Below, piece after piece: positions 14,871 to 21,468 of a stretch of 64,000 nt of DNA. Source of the stretch: Pseudomonas leptonychotis. Its GTDB lineage: Bacteria; Pseudomonadota; Gammaproteobacteria; Pseudomonadales; Pseudomonadaceae. The translations under genes were made by a program, and so were the position numbers. The stretch covers positions 1,798,001-1,862,000 of the forward strand of contig NZ_RFLV01000001.1 in the NCBI RefSeq assembly GCF_004920405.1, written 5' to 3'. A model generated the notes under the pieces. That model worked only from the letters and a program-made list of their open reading frames with translations, was not told the origin of the DNA and made no database searches. Numbering within the stretch: position 1 is the first letter of the stretch; every line of letters begins with the position of its first letter.

Positions 14871-16664
14871 TCAGGCCACGTTCGGGGGGCAGGTTGGCAG
14901 CAGTACATAGAACTGTGTGCCCTGGCCTATCCGTGATTTCACCCCGATATAACCGCCGTGCAATTGCACGATTTCCTTGCACAAGGCCAGGCCCAGGCCC
15001 GCGCCGCCTTTCTTGCGGCTGACCTGCACGAACGGCTCGAAAATCCGCGCTTGTTGGCGAAACGCAATACCCTCGCCGTTGTCGGTCACGCTTAGCTCAA
15101 CCCGCTCACCCTGTGAGCTGGCGCGTAAGTGCACGGTACCGCCGGGGTGACTGTGGCGCAGTGCGTTGCCAATCAGGTTGTCGAGTACCCGTTCGATTTG
15201 CCCTGGGTCGATCTGCAGGAGCGGTAGGTTCTCTTCTACATCGCAATACAACGTCACCTGCAGCTCATCGGCTTGAGCGCTGAATCGCTGCTGGGCTAGG
15301 CGCAGCAGCGGTTCAATGCTGCACTCGACACACTCAAGGGTTTGTAAGCCATTCTGGTAACGCGAGAAATTCAGCAGGTCGTTGATCAGGCGCAACAGGC
15401 GCTGCATTTCTTCATCGACCGTGCTCAGCAGATCTGCTTCACGGGTTTCGGCAGCAAAGCTCACCCGCTCCTGCAGCAGGGAGAAGGCCATCAGCATGCC
15501 GGTGACCGGGGTGCGCAGCTCATGTGAAGCGCGTAACACGAATTCGCTACGCACCCGTTCGAACGCGCGCTGTTCGGTGACATCGCGCAGCACCATCACC
15601 GCGCCCAGCGGGCGTTCGCCGTCGTGGCTGACTGCCGCGAGGCTATAAGCCAGTAATCGGGGCTCACCATCGATGTCGACTTGCAGGTCTTCCAGCGCCT
15701 CTTCCAGAGGCTCGCCGTGTATCACACGGTACAGCTGGGTTGGCAGGTCAGAGCGCTGCAGGCTCAATTCGGGTTGCTGTCCCAGGTGGCTTTCATTCCA
15801 GCCCAGCTGGCGTTGCGCGACTGGGTTGAAGTGCTCGACGTTGCCTTGGCGATCAAAAATCAGCAGGCCGTCGTCAATGCTGTCGAGTACCGCGTTTAAG
15901 CGTTGTTGCTCGATTTTCAGGGCCTGGATATCGCTGCTTCTGAAGCTGTGCAAGGCCTCGGCCATTAAGCCGAAACGCCGGCTCAATGAAGCGATTTCGT
16001 TCACCGGGGTAATGGGCAGGCTGACTTGAAAGTCGCCACGACCGATCTGGTCAGCAGCGGTGGCCAACTCTTCAATCGGCCGGCCAAAGCGCCGGGCGAT
16101 GCTGTGCGCGGTGACAAAGCTGATCAGCAGCACCGCCAGACCAATCATCCCAAGCAGTGCGGTAATCAGCCGGGTGCGTTCGCGAATGTCTTGCTGCCCC
16201 AGGTTAACTTGGTTGACGTAGTGCATTTGCATGGCATTGATGCTGTCGCGCAGGTCGCGCAAGGCCAGGTTGAAATTGTCGTCCTTGAGTAGGTGCCGGC
16301 GCACCTCGGCAGGGGAGCTTAGGAATTTTTGATAGTTGCTGTAGGCCTGCTTGATCGTGATAACCGATTGGTCATCGTTGGCATTCAGCGCCCCATCAGC
16401 GGCCTTGGCCAGCCACTCATCGAAGCGCGTATCCGACGCTTTCAATGCTTGGCGGTCGAGCTTGTCGGAAATGATCAGGATCACTTGGGTACCCATCTCT
16501 TGGCGCAAGCCGAGCGAGGCATCCAGGATGTCCATGTTACGGGTCATGGTCTCATCTTGGGTTTTGCTCAGCTGCCACACACTGAACATGCCCAGCAGCA
16601 AGCCGATCATGGAGGCAGTAACCAGTGCGCCACCGCTGATGAATAACTGGCTGCGCAGCCTCAT
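14871..16664 (-). CDS. kinB: Sensor histidine kinase/phosphatase KinB
   Basis: Membrane partner of AlgB, controlling alginate and virulence genes. The 597-residue protein has TM1 at about residues 8-30, a periplasmic sensor of roughly 135 residues and TM2 at about 165-186. A HAMP domain follows, then a PAS domain (about 250-365), HisKA with phospho-acceptor His381 in ASHELRTP, and a HATPase with an N box (LIGNALRHS) and G boxes. Pro386 in the H-box is the residue known to matter for phosphatase activity in P. aeruginosa KinB. The gene overlaps algB by 4 bp, so the two are coupled, with algB first. Confidence 0.96.
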   Translation of the reverse strand: MRLRSQLFISGGALVTASMIGLLLGMFSVWQLSKTQDETMTRNMDILDASLGLRQEMGTQVILIISDKLDRQALKASDTRFDEWLAKAADGALNANDDQSVITIKQAYSNYQKFLSSPAEVRRHLLKDDNFNLALRDLRDSINAMQMHYVNQVNLGQQDIRERTRLITALLGMIGLAVLLISFVTAHSIARRFGRPIEELATAADQIGRGDFQVSLPITPVNEIASLSRRFGLMAEALHSFRSSDIQALKIEQQRLNAVLDSIDDGLLIFDRQGNVEHFNPVAQRQLGWNESHLGQQPELSLQRSDLPTQLYRVIHGEPLEEALEDLQVDIDGEPRLLAYSLAAVSHDGERPLGAVMVLRDVTEQRAFERVRSEFVLRASHELRTPVTGMLMAFSLLQERVSFAAETREADLLSTVDEEMQRLLRLINDLLNFSRYQNGLQTLECVECSIEPLLRLAQQRFSAQADELQVTLYCDVEENLPLLQIDPGQIERVLDNLIGNALRHSHPGGTVHLRASSQGERVELSVTDNGEGIAFRQQARIFEPFVQVSRKKGGAGLGLALCKEIVQLHGGYIGVKSRIGQGTQFYVLLPTCPPNVA

Positions 16665-18007
16665 AAGCCGAGCTGCTTACGTTTGCGATAGAGCGTGGAG
16701 GCATCAATGCCCAGCGTTTTAGCAGCCTGGTCGAGGGTGCTGCTGTTGGCCAGTACCGCGCTGATGTGGGCTTTTTCCAGGTCTTCTAGGCTCATTTCGC
16801 CGCCGACATACGGGCTGTTCAGCTCTTCATTGAGGTTAAGGCCCAAATGGCTGACCTGTACCTGTTGTTCCGGGCACAGAATGCTTGCGCGCTCGATCAC
16901 GTTGCGCAACTCACGAATGTTGCCCGGCCAGGGGTAGTTGAGCAGGGCCTCGCGGGCTTCATCACTAAAGGCGCGGGCGGGGCGGGCGTAGTCGCTGACA
17001 AAGCGGGCAAGAAAGCGCTCGGCCAGTACCAGAATGTCTTCGCGGCGCTCACGCAGGGCCGGCAGGGTGAGGGTGATGACATTGAGGCGGTACTTTAAAT
17101 CTTCACGGAACTGGCCGTTCTTGGCCATTTCATCGAGGTCGAGGTTGGTGGCCGCGAGGATGCGTACATCGGCCTGGCGGGTTTGCGGATCGCCAATGCG
17201 TTCGTAAACCTTGTCTTGAATAAAGCGCAGCAGCTTGGGCTGCAGAGCCAGCGGGAAATCGCCAATTTCATCGAGAAACAAGGTGCCGCCATCTGCCTGG
17301 CTGACGCGGCCCTGGGTGCTTTCAGTGGCCCCAGTGAATGAGCCGCGGTTGTGGCCGAACAGTTCGCTTTCCATCAGCTCGGCGCTCAGCGACGGGCAGT
17401 TGATGGTGACGCAGGCTTTTTTCGCGCGCTTGCTCCAGCCATGGATGGCCTGGGCCAGTTCGCCCTTACCCGTACCAGACTCGCCGAGAATGAGGATGTT
17501 GGCGTCAGTGTCGGCGACCTGTTTAGCGGTTTGCAGCACCGCCATCATGGCCGGGTTATTTGAGTCCAGGCCTTCACCCGGTTTACGCACGCTGCCTTCG
17601 AGGTGCTCCAGGCGCTCAGCCAAACGGCGAATTTCCAGTTGTTTGGCAGCGGCCAGGCGTAATTGGTCAGGGCTGCAGGGCTTCACCACATAATCAGCCG
17701 CACCCGCCTGGATCGCATCCACCGCGGTGTCCACCGCCGAGTGGGCGGTAATCATCACTACGCGCATCCATGGCGCCTGCACGCGCATGTGCGCGAGCAC
17801 CTCAAGGCCATCATCGTCACCCAGGCGCAGGTCGAGAAAACATAAGTCGAACACCTGACGCAGCAGCAGCGCATCGGCCTGAGCCGCGCTGGTGGCTGTG
17901 CTGACTTGATAGCCCTCATCTTCCAGGCAATAGCGGAAGGTTCGCAGGATGGCCGGCTCATCATCGACCAGCAGAATGCGTCCGAGTGGCTGGGCTGGGG
18001 TGTCCAT
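16661..18007 (-). CDS. algB: NtrC-family response regulator AlgB
   Basis: A 448-residue DNA-binding regulator of alginate synthesis. The receiver domain (about residues 9-125) has the phospho-acceptor Asp59 in LCFLDLRLG. The AAA+ domain carries Walker A GESGTGKGE and DGGTLFLDEIGDFPL. A Fis-type helix-turn-helix ends the protein (LDQAAKTLGIDASTLYRKRKQL). The sigma54-contact loop reads GSFTGA in place of the usual GAFTGA. The ATG at 18007 is chosen for its AGGAG site and its match to the AlgB N-terminus MDTPAQPLGRILLVDDE. Its promoter region is shared with a sigma54-type promoter facing the other way, making AlgB a candidate activator there. Confidence 0.96.
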   Translation of the reverse strand: MDTPAQPLGRILLVDDEPAILRTFRYCLEDEGYQVSTATSAAQADALLLRQVFDLCFLDLRLGDDDGLEVLAHMRVQAPWMRVVMITAHSAVDTAVDAIQAGAADYVVKPCSPDQLRLAAAKQLEIRRLAERLEHLEGSVRKPGEGLDSNNPAMMAVLQTAKQVADTDANILILGESGTGKGELAQAIHGWSKRAKKACVTINCPSLSAELMESELFGHNRGSFTGATESTQGRVSQADGGTLFLDEIGDFPLALQPKLLRFIQDKVYERIGDPQTRQADVRILAATNLDLDEMAKNGQFREDLKYRLNVITLTLPALRERREDILVLAERFLARFVSDYARPARAFSDEAREALLNYPWPGNIRELRNVIERASILCPEQQVQVSHLGLNLNEELNSPYVGGEMSLEDLEKAHISAVLANSSTLDQAAKTLGIDASTLYRKRKQLGL

Positions 18008-18052: not shown

Positions 18053-18100
18053 CGTGCAAGTTGCACGGCATCTAAAAGGCAATCATGCAGCCTGCATGCA
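18053..18100. promoter_or_regulatory. Upstream activator sites, module 1 (paired TGCA-N3-TGCA)
   Basis: TGCA-AGT-TGCA lies at 18055-18065, within a 7-bp-arm palindrome at 18053-18067. TGCA-GCC-TGCA lies at 18086-18096, within a 6-bp-arm palindrome at 18085-18097. The two elements are exactly 31 bp apart. An overlapping third TGCA completes at 18100. They sit between algB and the BON gene, 74 bp (centre of the second element) before the -24 GG of a sigma54-type promoter. The same arrangement recurs at 20594-20638. Confidence 0.7.
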
Positions 18101-18163
18101 GGGGATGCCTAGGCGTTATGGTTAAGTTGCTGATTTATATAGATATTTTGTTTTACAAAAGTA

Positions 18164-18179
18164 TGGCATGGGCCTTGCG
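18164..18179 (+). promoter_or_regulatory. Sigma54-type promoter, module 1 (BON gene)
   Basis: TGGCAT, 5 nt, TTGCG. The -24 GG (18165-18166) and -12 GC (18177-18178) are separated by the required 10 nt. Transcription would start near 18190, about 50 nt before the BON gene. Confidence 0.8.
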
Positions 18180-18239
18180 ATAGTGGAGTACGAGTCGCCA
18201 AAAGCGACTGAGTGACTGCAACCCATAGGAGAAATAGCC

Positions 18240-19076
18240 ATGCATAAGTTGAAGACATTGGCCCTGGCCACCGCGACCGCCGGCCTGATCGGCCTGGCCC
18301 CTTTCAGCGCCTTTGCCGCTGATGGTGAGATGACCCGTGAGCTTAGTGAGGCGCGCCAGGAAGGCTCGATCTGGACCGCATTTGCGCTCAACCGCCACCT
18401 CAACCCCTTCACCATTGATGTGGATGTAGAGAACGGCAGCGCCAAGTTGACCGGCAAGGTGGAGACCGAGGTTGATCGCGATCTCGCCGAGCAGATTGCC
18501 CTGGGTATTGAAGGGGTGAAAAAGGTTGATAACCAGCTCACCCTCGACCCGGCCTTTGAGGCCAAAGCCAGCAGCGAGCCGAACCTGTCGCAGCGCTTTG
18601 AGGATGCCACCTTGGTGGCCACCGTGAAGTCCAAGTTGTTGTGGAACAGCAACACCGAAGGTCTCGACATTAATGTTAACGCCGCCAACGGTACGGTCAG
18701 CCTGACCGGTAATGCGCAGAGTGCCGAGGCAAAGGAATTGGCCGGTCGTCTGGCTGCCAACACCGATGGCGTGCGTGAGGTGAATAACCTGCTGAGCGTC
18801 AGCGGCACCGACAGCAGCGCCGCCAAGGCACAGAACGCCGCCGATGACGTCGGTGTAGCGGTCAGCGATGCCTGGATCACCAGCAAGGTGAAATCCAGCT
18901 TCATATACAGCCGCAACCTCGACGGCCTGAATATTTCGGTCGACACCCAAAAGGGCATGGTCAGCCTCAGCGGCAGCGTGCTGAGCAACGCCGAGAAGCA
19001 GTTGGCTGTTGAAACCGCCCGCAACATCCGTGGTGTTCGCGGTGTAGATGCCGACGCCCTGCGTATCGATAGCTAA
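18240..19076 (+). CDS. Triple BON-domain periplasmic protein
   Basis: A 278-residue protein with a signal peptide (about residues 1-26, ending AFAA) and three BON (OsmY-like) domains at about 42-110, 118-195 and 210-276. Each domain has the hallmark pattern 'DV..G.V.LTG.V....E...A..IA...GV..V.N.L'. BON proteins bind phospholipid surfaces or protect the envelope during osmotic stress. The exact role here is unknown. It is preceded by AGGAG and by a sigma54-type promoter, and ends in an intrinsic terminator. It is divergent from algB. Confidence 0.9.
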   Translation: MHKLKTLALATATAGLIGLAPFSAFAADGEMTRELSEARQEGSIWTAFALNRHLNPFTIDVDVENGSAKLTGKVETEVDRDLAEQIALGIEGVKKVDNQLTLDPAFEAKASSEPNLSQRFEDATLVATVKSKLLWNSNTEGLDINVNAANGTVSLTGNAQSAEAKELAGRLAANTDGVREVNNLLSVSGTDSSAAKAQNAADDVGVAVSDAWITSKVKSSFIYSRNLDGLNISVDTQKGMVSLSGSVLSNAEKQLAVETARNIRGVRGVDADALRIDS

Positions 19077-19083
19077 TCCCGCT

Positions 19084-19114
19084 GGCTGCCTCCAGCTGGA
19101 GGCAGCCTATTTTT
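19084..19114 (+). terminator. Terminator after the BON gene
   Basis: A perfect 11-bp stem (arms 19084-19094 and 19097-19107) has a 2-nt centre and is followed by TATTTTTG. Partial read-through into the next gene is possible. Confidence 0.8.
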
Positions 19115-19155
19115 GAGGCGGTTATCGCCGCCGTTACAGCCAGAGGAGAGTCACC

Positions 19156-19590
19156 ATGACTGACAAAATCCAGCAACTGAACGACCTGATTGAGATTACC
19201 CGTGACGGTCAGCGCTTTTATCAGCACGCCCACGATGAAGTGAAAGATGTGCGCCTGCAGGCTCTGTTCCGCGACATGTCGCAGAGCAAGACCGAGCTGA
19301 TCCGTGCGCTGGCCGTGAAGGTGAGTGCTAATCAGGAGAAGCCAGCCGCTGGCGGCACCATGGTCGGCAAGTTGCGCCAGATGTATGCCGACACTAAAGC
19401 CGCGCTGGTAAGCGACGAAGAGGCCACTTATGTGGCGCAGCTTGAGGAAGCGGAAGACCGCATCCTGCACGCCTTCGAAGATGCGCTGAAAGATGCTGAT
19501 CCAGACGTGCATGCACTGCTCGCGACGCAAATGCCGACCGTGCGTGCTAACCACGACCGTATGCGCAACATCAAACAGTCCATGCAGTAA
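19156..19590 (+). CDS. DUF2383/PA2169-type four-helix-bundle protein
   Basis: A 144-residue, mostly helical, soluble protein without a signal peptide. The first half (IQQLNDLIEITRDGQRFYQHAHDEVKD) resembles the ferritin-like DUF2383 family called PA2169-type in Pseudomonas, where it sits in stress-gene clusters. Function is unknown. A GAGGAG site precedes the ATG. It lies between the BON gene and the first DUF1328 gene, all in the same direction, so it probably belongs to the same stress operon. Confidence 0.8.
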   Translation: MTDKIQQLNDLIEITRDGQRFYQHAHDEVKDVRLQALFRDMSQSKTELIRALAVKVSANQEKPAAGGTMVGKLRQMYADTKAALVSDEEATYVAQLEEAEDRILHAFEDALKDADPDVHALLATQMPTVRANHDRMRNIKQSMQ

Positions 19591-19597
19591 GGCACTT

Positions 19598-19622
19598 AGG
19601 GGCGCGGCCTGGCCGCGCCCCT
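19598..19622. other. GC-rich palindrome between the DUF2383-like and DUF1328 genes
   Basis: Arms of 12 bp (19598-19609 and 19611-19622) surround one base, with no T tract after them. It may act as an mRNA-stabilising or attenuating hairpin within the operon. Confidence 0.5.
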
Positions 19623-19668
19623 TAATGGCTGCGCTTAGGGCGCGGTTCGCTAAATAAGGAGAGTCATC

Positions 19669-19833
19669 ATGTTGAGTTGGGCCATTACCTTTCTGATCAT
19701 TGCCATCATCGCTGCAGTACTGGGCTTCGGTGGTATCGCGGGCACTGCAACCGGGATCGCCAAGATTCTGTTCCTGGTCTTTCTGGTGCTGTTCATTGTC
19801 TCGTTCATCATGGGCCGTCGCCCACGGGTGTAG
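19669..19833 (+). CDS. DUF1328 small membrane protein, copy 1
   Basis: A 54-residue protein with two hydrophobic segments (about residues 3-22 and 30-48) and a basic tail (GRRPRV). The central glycine-rich turn ([14 protein letters not shown]) is the DUF1328/YtjA signature. An AAGGAGAG site precedes the ATG. The nucleotide sequence is almost the same as the copy at 20835, with mostly synonymous third-position changes. It is followed 12 nt later by a degenerate Ivy-like gene, mirroring the DUF1328–Ivy pair downstream. The family is stress-induced in several bacteria but has no defined function. Confidence 0.88.
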
Positions 19834-19845
19834 GAGCATATAACC

Positions 19846-20253
19846 ATGCAACCCTTCAAGGCGCTGCTTGTCGCCCTGGTATTGGGCGGCAGTGCGGCGG
19901 CTTCGGCCGCCGGCAACAACTCACAGTCGTTGACTGTTGAACCTACGCTTGAGCAGGCACCTGTTCATGCTCAAGCCTGGCCTGCTATTCGCGCGGTCGA
20001 GCATGCTTGGCCCCAATGGATGCACAACCTCACAGGTACGGTGCTGGTCTTACAGGGCGCGCGCCACGATCTAAGCGGCTGCCATGCGCCGCAATGTACT
20101 CAAGTTTCTGGGCTGCCCCAGCCTATGTCAGCGACTTTCGGCACCTATCAGCAGGCGGCACAACAGCCATCCGCTGCGCCGCAAGCCCGCCACGCTAGTT
20201 TGCCTTGGCAAGCACAGCCTGATGCGCGGATGCCGCAACGTCTGAGCTTCTGA
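19846..20253 (+). CDS. Degenerate Ivy-like periplasmic protein
   Basis: A 135-residue secreted protein that aligns with the Ivy lysozyme inhibitor encoded at 21010. The signal peptides are nearly the same (KALLVALVLGGSAAA versus KTLLAALMLGGSAAA). The PVxxQxW start and the WMHNLTG/WVMNLSG motif are shared, and the ARHASLPW/SQHASLRW motif follows. The C-x4-C loop is kept (CHAPQC here, CEEQNC there). Much of the middle is replaced by low-complexity Ala/Gln-rich sequence. The loop position matches the inhibitory CKPHDC loop of E. coli Ivy. It may be a diverged inhibitor or a decaying duplicate. Confidence 0.7.
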   Translation: MQPFKALLVALVLGGSAAASAAGNNSQSLTVEPTLEQAPVHAQAWPAIRAVEHAWPQWMHNLTGTVLVLQGARHDLSGCHAPQCTQVSGLPQPMSATFGTYQQAAQQPSAAPQARHASLPWQAQPDARMPQRLSF

Positions 20254-20593
20254 GCCTCAGCGCCATGTTCCATTCCTTCCCTTTAGCCGATGGGCAGAGC
20301 GCGTAGCGTTTGCCTAGCGCTTATCCGGCCTATTAACGGCAACCTTGCATAGCACGTGTCTGCTGTTGGCCAGTCGGCTGCAGCGCTTCACGCTCACTCC
20401 ATGTGTTTTTACCTACCGTTGTCCTCGTGCATTGAATTGCATGGGTAGCCGAGCCTGTGCCTGATTGAGGAGCAACGTCAGTGGGGCGATGTGCCCGTGC
20501 AAAGGTGGCTGTTGCAAGGTGCATGACGTGTTGTGCAGGCATATGGATAGGCCGGCAGACTTCGGTTGCGGTGGGTACGCCGCTGTAAGGATT
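20254..20593. other. Gene-free region with clustered TGCA motifs
   Basis: About 340 bases without a convincing gene. It contains TGCA tetramers at 20428, 20438, 20498, 20513, 20520 and 20534. The pair at 20513-20523 has the TGCA-N3-TGCA form of the activator sites downstream. A 66-codon frame in this region lacks family features and is not called. Confidence 0.6.
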
Positions 20594-20638
20594 CATGCAA
20601 GTTGCATGATGAAATGGTCTCGATCATGCAGCTTGCAA
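20594..20638. promoter_or_regulatory. Upstream activator sites, module 2 (paired TGCA-N3-TGCA)
   Basis: TGCA-AGT-TGCA lies at 20596-20606, within a perfect 7-bp-arm palindrome at 20594-20608. TGCA-GCT-TGCA lies at 20627-20637. The spacing is exactly 31 bp, as in module 1, and the N3 sequences (AGT, then GCC or GCT) are the same in order. The second element is 72 bp before the -24 GG of the promoter at 20703. Confidence 0.7.
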
Positions 20639-20702
20639 GTGACTCGCTTTGTGGGTGATTCGTAAGTCATTGAAATATAAGTATTTTATATCTAATAAAA
20701 GC

Positions 20703-20718
20703 TGGCACGGTGCCTGCA
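20703..20718 (+). promoter_or_regulatory. Sigma54-type promoter, module 2 (DUF1328–Ivy operon)
   Basis: TGGCAC at 20703-20708 and CTGCA at 20714-20718. The -24 GG (20704-20705) and -12 GC (20716-20717) are 10 nt apart. An AT-rich stretch (20664-20700) separates it from the activator sites and could help DNA bending. The predicted start near 20729 leaves a leader of about 105 nt. Confidence 0.8.
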
Positions 20719-20834: not shown

Positions 20835-20999
20835 ATGTTGAGTTGGGCCATTACCTTTCTGATCATCGCCATCATCGCTGCAGTATTGGGCTTCGGTGGT
20901 ATCGCCGGCACCGCAACCGGGATCGCGAAAATTCTGTTCCTGGTCTTTCTGGTGCTGTTCATCGTGTCGTTCATCATGGGCCGCCGCCCACGTGGATAG
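20835..20999 (+). CDS. DUF1328 small membrane protein, copy 2
   Basis: A 54-residue protein with two transmembrane segments, identical to copy 1 at 19669 except for the last residue (Gly for Val). An AGGAG site at 20823-20827 sets the start at 20835. A longer frame running upstream to 20649 crosses the promoter and is rejected. It is the first gene of the sigma54-driven pair and is followed 10 nt later by the Ivy gene. The arrangement corresponds to P. aeruginosa PA5482–PA5481. Confidence 0.9.
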
Positions 21000-21009
21000 A
21001 GGAGCTCCC

Positions 21010-21468
21010 ATGACCATTAAGACGCTGCTTGCCGCCCTGATGCTGGGTGGCAGTGCGGCGGCTTTGGCCGCAGACACCGATGGCCAATTCCGCCTCAATG
21101 AATTGCTTTCCAGTGACCCGGTTTACCAGCAGAGCTGGCAGGAGCTGGTGGAAGACGAAAGCCGTTTGCCGGAATGGGTGATGAACCTAAGCGGCCTCGC
21201 CACCCCGATGCTGGGCCTGGAGGACGACGGTGACAAGTACCTGGTTGGTCAGTTGTGCGAGGAGCAAAACTGTTTCAATCAGCGCCTCTACGTGGCCTTT
21301 AGCTGGGACAAGGAAGACGCCTATGCGCTCTACGTGCAGCTGCCAGACGGGCTGCCGACAGACAAAGCGCCTAGCCAACATGCCAGCTTGCGCTGGCTGG
21401 GCGACCCGGACGAGGCCACTCAGAAGCTGCTGCTCGAACAGCTGAAAAGCGACCCGAACTGGTACTAA
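21010..21468 (+). CDS. Ivy-family C-type lysozyme inhibitor
   Basis: A periplasmic inhibitor of vertebrate (C-type) lysozyme, 152 residues. The signal peptide is about residues 1-21 (ending ALAA). The mature part carries the loop LCEEQNCF, equivalent to the CKPHDC inhibitory loop of E. coli Ivy, and the conserved RLYVAF and LRWLG segments. The loop lacks the histidine of the E. coli protein, as expected for more distant family members, so inhibition strength cannot be assumed. The ATG at 21010 with GAGGAG upstream fits the signal peptide. It is the second gene of the sigma54-driven pair. Confidence 0.88.
   Translation: MTIKTLLAALMLGGSAAALAADTDGQFRLNELLSSDPVYQQSWQELVEDESRLPEWVMNLSGLATPMLGLEDDGDKYLVGQLCEEQNCFNQRLYVAFSWDKEDAYALYVQLPDGLPTDKAPSQHASLRWLGDPDEATQKLLLEQLKSDPNWY

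Follow-up and report, generated by a model that had tools for sequence, protein, structure and literature searches.

Two sigma54-type promoter modules beside algB in Pseudomonas leptonychotis as probable members of a family-wide, AlgB-activated promoter set

We analysed a 64,000-nucleotide stretch of the Pseudomonas leptonychotis genome (RefSeq assembly GCF_004920405.1, contig NZ_RFLV01000001.1, positions 1,798,001 to 1,862,000; hereafter the window, with positions counted from its first letter), in which genes for BON, DUF2383, DUF1328 and Ivy-type proteins lie next to the kinB and algB genes and are preceded by two promoter modules of one layout. In both modules, a pair of palindromes of the form CNTGCA-N3-TGCANG, 31 base pairs (bp) apart from start to start, is followed by a site resembling that of integration host factor (IHF) and then by a -24/-12 sigma54 element. 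Module 1 occupies the region that separates algB, on the minus strand with its ATG at 18007, from the BON gene, which starts at 18240 on the plus strand; the distal palindrome of this module is 46-60 bp upstream of the algB start codon. Module 2 lies ahead of the second DUF1328 gene and the Ivy gene. The parts of the two modules are as follows:

18053 to 18067, no strand assigned: module 1 distal palindrome CGTGCAAGTTGCACG, core TGCAAGTTGCA at 18055-18065
18084 to 18098, no strand assigned: module 1 proximal palindrome CATGCAGCCTGCATG, core TGCAGCCTGCA at 18086-18096
18123 to 18135, plus strand: module 1 IHF-like site, 8 of 9 consensus positions, 26 bp past the pair
18164 to 18179, plus strand: module 1 -24/-12 sigma54 element TGGCATGGGCCTTGCG, 67 bp past the pair
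20594 to 20608, no strand assigned: module 2 distal palindrome CATGCAAGTTGCATG, core TGCAAGTTGCA at 20596-20606
20625 to 20639, no strand assigned: module 2 proximal palindrome CATGCAGCTTGCAAG, core TGCAGCTTGCA at 20627-20637
20663 to 20675, plus strand: module 2 IHF-like site TAAGTCATTGAAA, 8 of 9 positions counted by eye, 25 bp past the pair
20703 to 20718, plus strand: module 2 sigma54 element TGGCACGGTGCCTGCA, 65 bp past the pair

All four palindromes match the wider consensus CNTGCANNNTGCANG, and the two sigma54 elements, each with the -24 GG and the -12 GC spaced 10 bp, score 0.90 and 0.95. An earlier note on this DNA had described TGCA-N3-TGCA pairs at 31 bp in both places, the first directly before algB, an NtrC-family gene, and a GG-N10-GC promoter 72-74 bp further on; coordinates, offset and position relative to algB all hold, with 74 bp in the first set and 72 bp in the second between the centre of the proximal palindrome and the -24 GG. 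The IHF-like site, which that note left out, is an addition; for module 2, a scripted search gave a different 8/9 site at 20678. Directly upstream of module 2, the region 20340-20560 holds several extra TGCA motifs, including TGCAAGGTGCA at 20513.

The genes around the modules are listed below, with assignments from Pfam scans:

14871 to 16664, minus strand: kinB, sensor kinase (KinB_sensor, HAMP, PAS, HisKA, HATPase_c)
16661 to 18007, minus strand: algB, response regulator and sigma54 activator (receiver, Sigma54_activat and HTH_8, a Fis-type helix-turn-helix; loop GSFTGA)
18240 to 19076, plus strand: BON-domain protein with three BON stretches
19156 to 19590, plus strand: DUF2383 protein
19669 to 19833, plus strand: DUF1328 small protein, copy 1
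19846 to 20253, plus strand: Ivy-like diverged paralogue of 135 residues, without a Pfam match
20835 to 20999, plus strand: DUF1328 small protein, copy 2
21010 to 21468, plus strand: Ivy, inhibitor of vertebrate lysozyme family

Downstream of each DUF1328 gene (19669-19833 and 20835-20999) there is thus a gene for Ivy or an Ivy-like protein. At 54 residues each, the two DUF1328 proteins differ in their last residue alone, and the first Ivy-like protein is strongly diverged; its counterpart at another locus (L043) aligns both to it (57%) and to Ivy (36%).

Beyond the window, the exact pair with its 20-bp spacer (N20) occurs 90 times in 55 of 119 Pseudomonadaceae genomes, a sample that is even but made up of related genomes and in which exact or near-exact sites were counted and weaker members missed. 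A pair with a 21-bp spacer (N21) occurs 13 times in 12 of these genomes. All 10 of the 13 N21 sites that were read have a sigma54 element, at 56 bp (one site) or 65-67 bp (nine sites), and lie upstream of a gene for a BON, DUF3509, DUF1328 or small-pair protein (described below); these sites are therefore modules as well, and the module tolerates an offset of 31 or 32 bp. In a separate set of 38 genomes that includes P. leptonychotis itself, 20 of the 25 genomes of the genus carry the exact pair, as against none of the 13 from other families of the order. A scan of a one-genome-per-species collection for the pair plus GG-N10-GC, covering part of that collection, returned at least 120 stretches, among them 111 from Pseudomonadaceae and three more (a 'Pantoea' and two gammaproteobacterial metagenome-assembled genomes) with Pseudomonas-type target genes; six distant stretches (Acidobacteria, Duganella, Anaerolineae, Phycisphaerales, Oscillochloris, Terrimonas) have no sigma54 element of 0.8 and were taken as chance matches. 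Module 2 is old: both modules are exact in genome G014, and in G001 the DUF1328-Ivy genes are preceded by a 13/16 pair and a sigma54 element. The earlier note had called for a search of this kind and had allowed that the layout might not be conserved in related genomes; the 31-bp pair ahead of sigma54 turns out to be both conserved in the Pseudomonadaceae and specific.

The rest of the architecture is conserved along with the pair. When sites from the 119 genomes were picked by the pair alone, all 82 distinct pairs fetched with at least 300 bp on each side prove to have, within 200 bp on one flank or the other, a sigma54 element that scores 0.8 or more. It lies 65-67 bp away in 70 of them and 55-56 bp away, about one helical turn nearer, in seven, with distances of 51, 54, 63, 64 and 74 bp occurring once each, so that both the 119-genome and the 82-pair data show upstream activator sites at a conserved spacing, as looked for in a sigma54 promoter. 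In 172 modules with a sigma54 spacing of 63-69 bp (a set that includes collection-scan loci preselected for 64-68 bp), an IHF-like site matching 8-9 of 9 positions is present in 155, compared with 13% in mononucleotide shuffles, and in 136 it stands at offset 25-26 on the promoter strand. Single TGCA-N3-TGCA sites in the pair-selected set cluster 80-89 bp from sigma54.

What the modules precede was counted over 190 distinct pairs in the loci examined, 183 of them with a sigma54 element; 120 of the loci had been preselected for a promoter, and a module was classed by the first matching gene downstream. By this count the 183 modules precede genes for a small BON protein (42), an unnamed small-protein pair (40), DUF3509 (26), a three-BON protein (20), DUF1652 (19), DUF2383 (11) and DUF1328 (8), and algB itself (1), so that 167 precede a recurring family or algB and 16 something else. 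The single algB-target module may be a locus where a weaker, algB-facing element scored best, as in L042. The small BON, DUF1652, DUF3509 and CsbD assignments were confirmed by Pfam for one representative each; a second DUF3509-like protein falls below the Pfam cut-off, and no Pfam family was found for the scanned representatives of the small-protein pair. The gene set named in the earlier note (BON, DUF2383, DUF1328, Ivy) is thus right as far as it goes and incomplete, as most modules elsewhere precede small BON, DUF1652, DUF3509 or small-pair genes. The types of target, namely BON proteins, small hydrophobic proteins and a lysozyme inhibitor, suggest a role in cell-envelope or osmotic stress.

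Several target classes have features of their own. The small-protein pair (e.g., L030, L040, L218), among the commonest targets, consists of adjacent genes for proteins of about 75 and 59 residues, the second ending in FDPVLR; in L302 (at 6717) and L303 (at 5308), from genomes G153 and G079, an N21 module is found some 2 kb past kinB, ahead of a gene for a protein of 100-103 residues, after which comes a gene resembling the second member of the pair. Five DUF3509 promoters (L028, L033, L038, L045, L054) have a third TGCA-N3-TGCA palindrome inside the pair, 14 or 17 bp from its ends, and two others (L288 and L289, from G051 and G139) combine one palindrome with a good sigma54 element, possibly a single-site form of the module. 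DUF1652 promoters (e.g., L031, L046, L049) have an atypical sigma54 element, AGGCACG...TATGCG or CGGCATG...TATGCT, at the usual distance from the pair.

In the P. leptonychotis genome there are three exact pairs: the two of the window and a third ahead of genes for a small BON protein and a CsbD protein. The DUF3509 gene of this genome (L285) has no module. Four weaker sites, with one or two mismatches, all lack a sigma54 element of at least 0.8 in the range of 55-67 bp (at one of them the score is 0.76 at 67 bp and, in the other direction, 0.81 at 92 bp), and we therefore claim no further targets in this genome.

On this body of sequence comparison, we consider it very likely that the two window promoters belong to a set of AlgB-activated sigma54 promoters that extends across the family; AlgB is the best candidate activator of the modules. 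The window gene encodes an AlgB orthologue in which Pfam finds the receiver, AAA+ and helix-turn-helix domains that an activator of such a regulon should have. For 47 of the 183 modules, an AlgB orthologue is encoded no more than 4 kb away. KinB_sensor was sought in all 119 genomes and AlgB itself in 20; KinB_sensor is present in 79, and the exact pair is found in 55 of these 79 KinB-positive genomes and in none of the 40 KinB-negative ones (Fisher p 5e-15, uncorrected for relatedness). In five genera of mixed KinB status, exact or N21 pairs occur in 11/12, 10/11, 5/11, 1/2 and 1/1 KinB-positive genomes compared with 0/6 KinB-negative ones. The earlier note had asked whether the layout tracks algB, and had left the activator as AlgB or another enhancer-binding protein; the layout does track algB, in adjacency and in co-occurrence, and both favour AlgB.

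The N21 exceptions to this distribution are themselves AlgB-linked as far as AlgB was sought. Eleven of 12 KinB-negative genomes tested have no AlgB orthologue and only AlgB-like regulators at 38-45% identity, compared with 74-83% in AlgB carriers; the remaining one, a member of genus g30 (G054), carries AlgB (74%) without KinB_sensor, and about 9 kb from algB its DUF1328 gene is preceded by an N21 pair and a sigma54 element. G054 and G081, both of g30, are the only KinB-negative genomes with exact N21 pairs, and before the DUF3509 genes of this genus N21 modules are near-exact in G054 and G093 and exact in G081. Within the 20 genomes tested for AlgB and the 119 tested for KinB_sensor, the modules are thus limited to the AlgB-bearing side, with no exact pair in the 40 KinB-negative genomes and N21 exceptions confined to g30, whose single tested member has AlgB. 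In g30 (G054, G081, G093), where AlgB was seen in G054, N21 replaces N20 and the DUF3509 sigma54 distance is 54-56 bp. Published work, cited here and below from individual passages of the papers named, describes an AlgB in Azotobacter vinelandii that is 75% identical to that of PAO1, and no KinB (PMC6979010); the g30 pattern fits this statement, and g30 may well be Azotobacter.

The strongest alternative is that the modules are real sigma54 promoters whose activator is another enhancer-binding protein of similar distribution, with algB a mere neighbour or target. In its favour, no AlgB orthologue is encoded in the examined flanks of 136 of the 183 modules, though this would be expected of a regulon too. 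It is nonetheless improbable: within 4 kb of the 183 modules, no other protein matches the AlgB AAA+ domain (E < 1e-8, genes of either orientation included; 106 modules had 2 kb or more of flank on each side), the AlgB-less genomes keep their AlgB-like regulators yet have no exact pairs, and a genus whose tested member has AlgB without KinB_sensor retains the modules.

A number of observations count against AlgB as the activator or limit the case for it. The co-occurrence partly follows phylogeny, so that the Fisher p value overstates the independence of the genomes, and the within-genus contrasts are few, comprising six KinB-negative genomes over the five mixed genera. Among the 79 KinB-positive genomes, 24 have no exact N20 pair. 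Six of these pair-less AlgB/KinB-positive genomes were read at algB. In favour of AlgB, a pair matching 15 of 16 positions is present there in G139, G105, G042 and G053, with a sigma54 element of at least 0.8 at 66-68 bp in the last three; against it, G139 has no element of 0.8, and no pair lies near algB in G041 and G076 (12/16 and 11/16). Before the small BON gene, G105 and G139 each have a 15/16 pair with a sigma54 element, which again favours AlgB, and G042 has a 14/16 pair that no sigma54 element follows. Where AlgB is missing, the target genes are often missing as well (DUF3509 is present in 3 of 36, g30 excluded, versus 21 of 24 KinB-positive or g30 genomes); targets that vanish along with AlgB are unusable as matched controls. 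The sole informative AlgB-lacking case found is G069, which keeps the small BON (46-48% identity) and has no pair before it, its best sigma54 score being just under 0.8; this one case agrees with AlgB as the activator. Of the DUF3509 genes, 4 of 30 in AlgB/KinB-positive or g30 genomes have a module in front of them versus 0 of 6 in the others, a comparison that does not discriminate. The sigma54-contact loop of the window AlgB (17327-17344) reads GSFTGA where GAFTGA is expected; among 58 AlgB orthologue matches, from loci that partly overlap, the loop is GAFTGA in 35, GSFTGA in 11 and unread in 12, and a functional activator, LevR, is listed with Ser at the second position (PMC3162934). Finally, AlgB of P. 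aeruginosa is required at the algD promoter, which is under AlgT/AlgU (PMC3325190), and so may not always act through sigma54.

This last point bears on a second alternative, that AlgB does bind the palindromes but represses, or activates without sigma54, and that the -24/-12 elements are served by another activator. The AlgT/AlgU-dependent algD promoter at which AlgB is needed (PMC3325190, PMC10418997) speaks for such a role; we nevertheless regard it as highly improbable here, given that none of the 82 pairs lacks a sigma54 element, that the distance to it is fixed in most, and that an IHF-like site lies in the gap, which is the layout of an activator. There is next to no prospect that chance or locally TGCA-rich sequence explains the pairs: lone TGCA-N3-TGCA sites are indeed near chance level in the window (6 versus 3.7 expected, a number reached in 18 of 100 shuffles), but the 31-bp pair, seen twice, is absent from 400 dinucleotide shuffles, and the 119 genomes that contain 90 N20 pairs contain no pair in the reversed pattern and none with a 25-bp spacer (N25, about half a helical turn out of phase), so that both controls reject this explanation. 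N25 was used because N21 failed as a spacing control, the 10 N21 sites read (of 13) being modules themselves. The reversed pattern is also absent from the whole P. leptonychotis genome. Recent duplication of one promoter was rejected on the grounds that the two modules agree at 6 of 20 positions in the spacer and at 17 of 64 past the pair.

Under activation by AlgB, we envisage that AlgB dimers would occupy both palindromes, which at 31 bp are about three helical turns apart, and would assemble into an active AAA+ ring; that IHF would fold the DNA between the AlgB sites and the promoter; and that AlgB would then remodel RpoN polymerase at -24/-12. The output would be transcription of the BON-DUF2383-DUF1328-Ivy-like genes from module 1 and of DUF1328-Ivy from module 2. 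In addition, AlgB may regulate itself, as the distal palindrome of module 1 lies so close to the algB start codon. AlgB binding and RpoN dependence, like the 'envelope-protection' label given to the regulon in the earlier note, are what we infer from the promoter layout and the target types.

The relation of the modules to alginate can be read from the 119 genomes. AlgF is present (E < 1e-60) in 42 of them, and 57 have a match of any strength; among the 55 exact-pair genomes, AlgF gave no match in 18 and a weak one in another, leaving 19 without a clear AlgF, so that the module follows AlgB and not the alginate operon. We think it rather probable that the core and ancestral role of AlgB in the Pseudomonadaceae is not alginate but dedicated sigma54 activation of a family-wide stress regulon of small proteins, with sigma54-free control of algD a later recruitment. 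The regulon would comprise small BON, DUF1652, DUF3509, DUF1328, DUF2383 and Ivy-type proteins, and would be kept in genomes without alginate genes and in one genus without KinB. In P. aeruginosa, PA4739 and PA4738, which we take to be the BON and CsbD genes, have been reported on together with PA5482. One array table lists PA4738, PA4739, PA5481 and PA5482 as jointly down (PMC3557286), and PA4738, PA4739 and PA5482 change 15- to 21-fold in another study, the passage concerned giving no direction (PMC10413270); PA4738 and PA5482 are termed osmotic-stress genes (PMC10734507), and PA5482 and PA5481 are listed as one operon, which includes an Ivy precursor gene (PMC4981712). The cited passages on PA5482-PA5481 and PA4739-PA4738 make no mention of sigma54 or AlgB control.

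That AlgB is a sigma54-type regulator is already known; it owes its name to alginate regulation and has been studied in that role, yet its architecture is that of a sigma54 activator. A sigma54 regulon of AlgB would fit a published finding in Azotobacter vinelandii, a species lacking a KinB homologue, where alginate production is normal in an algB mutant (PMC6979010). An AlgB motif of this form, the layout and the target list were not found in the passages of the literature examined, nor an AlgB motif in those of an atlas from high-throughput systematic evolution of ligands by exponential enrichment (HT-SELEX; PMC8041468); key papers and the supplements were outside this scope, and the motif may thus already be in print. 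The defined candidate site, the fixed layout and the target list make the sigma54 function of AlgB directly testable, and tie several DUF families to one circuit.

Sigma54 promoters of the NtrC, NifA and XylR type have paired upstream activator sites together with IHF, whose site between the activator sites and the promoter is common, not universal. The modules share with this type the two tandem activator sites, the IHF-like site and the -24/-12 element, and differ from it in their TGCA-N3-TGCA palindromes, the fixed 31/32-bp pair and the small stress-type targets. The NtrC site itself is TGCA-N9-TGCA, with the same TGCA half-sites as the modules but an inner spacing of nine instead of three; NtrC sites were rejected, all four window palindromes being N3. 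KinB-AlgB of P. aeruginosa has the same gene pair and domains as the window, and the P. aeruginosa AlgB has been described as NtrC-type with GAFTGA (PMC6932827); at algD, according to a review, it binds three sites in its unphosphorylated form (PMC10418997). It is for algD and alginate that AlgB is known in P. aeruginosa, whereas the window sites precede non-alginate genes and sigma54 elements.

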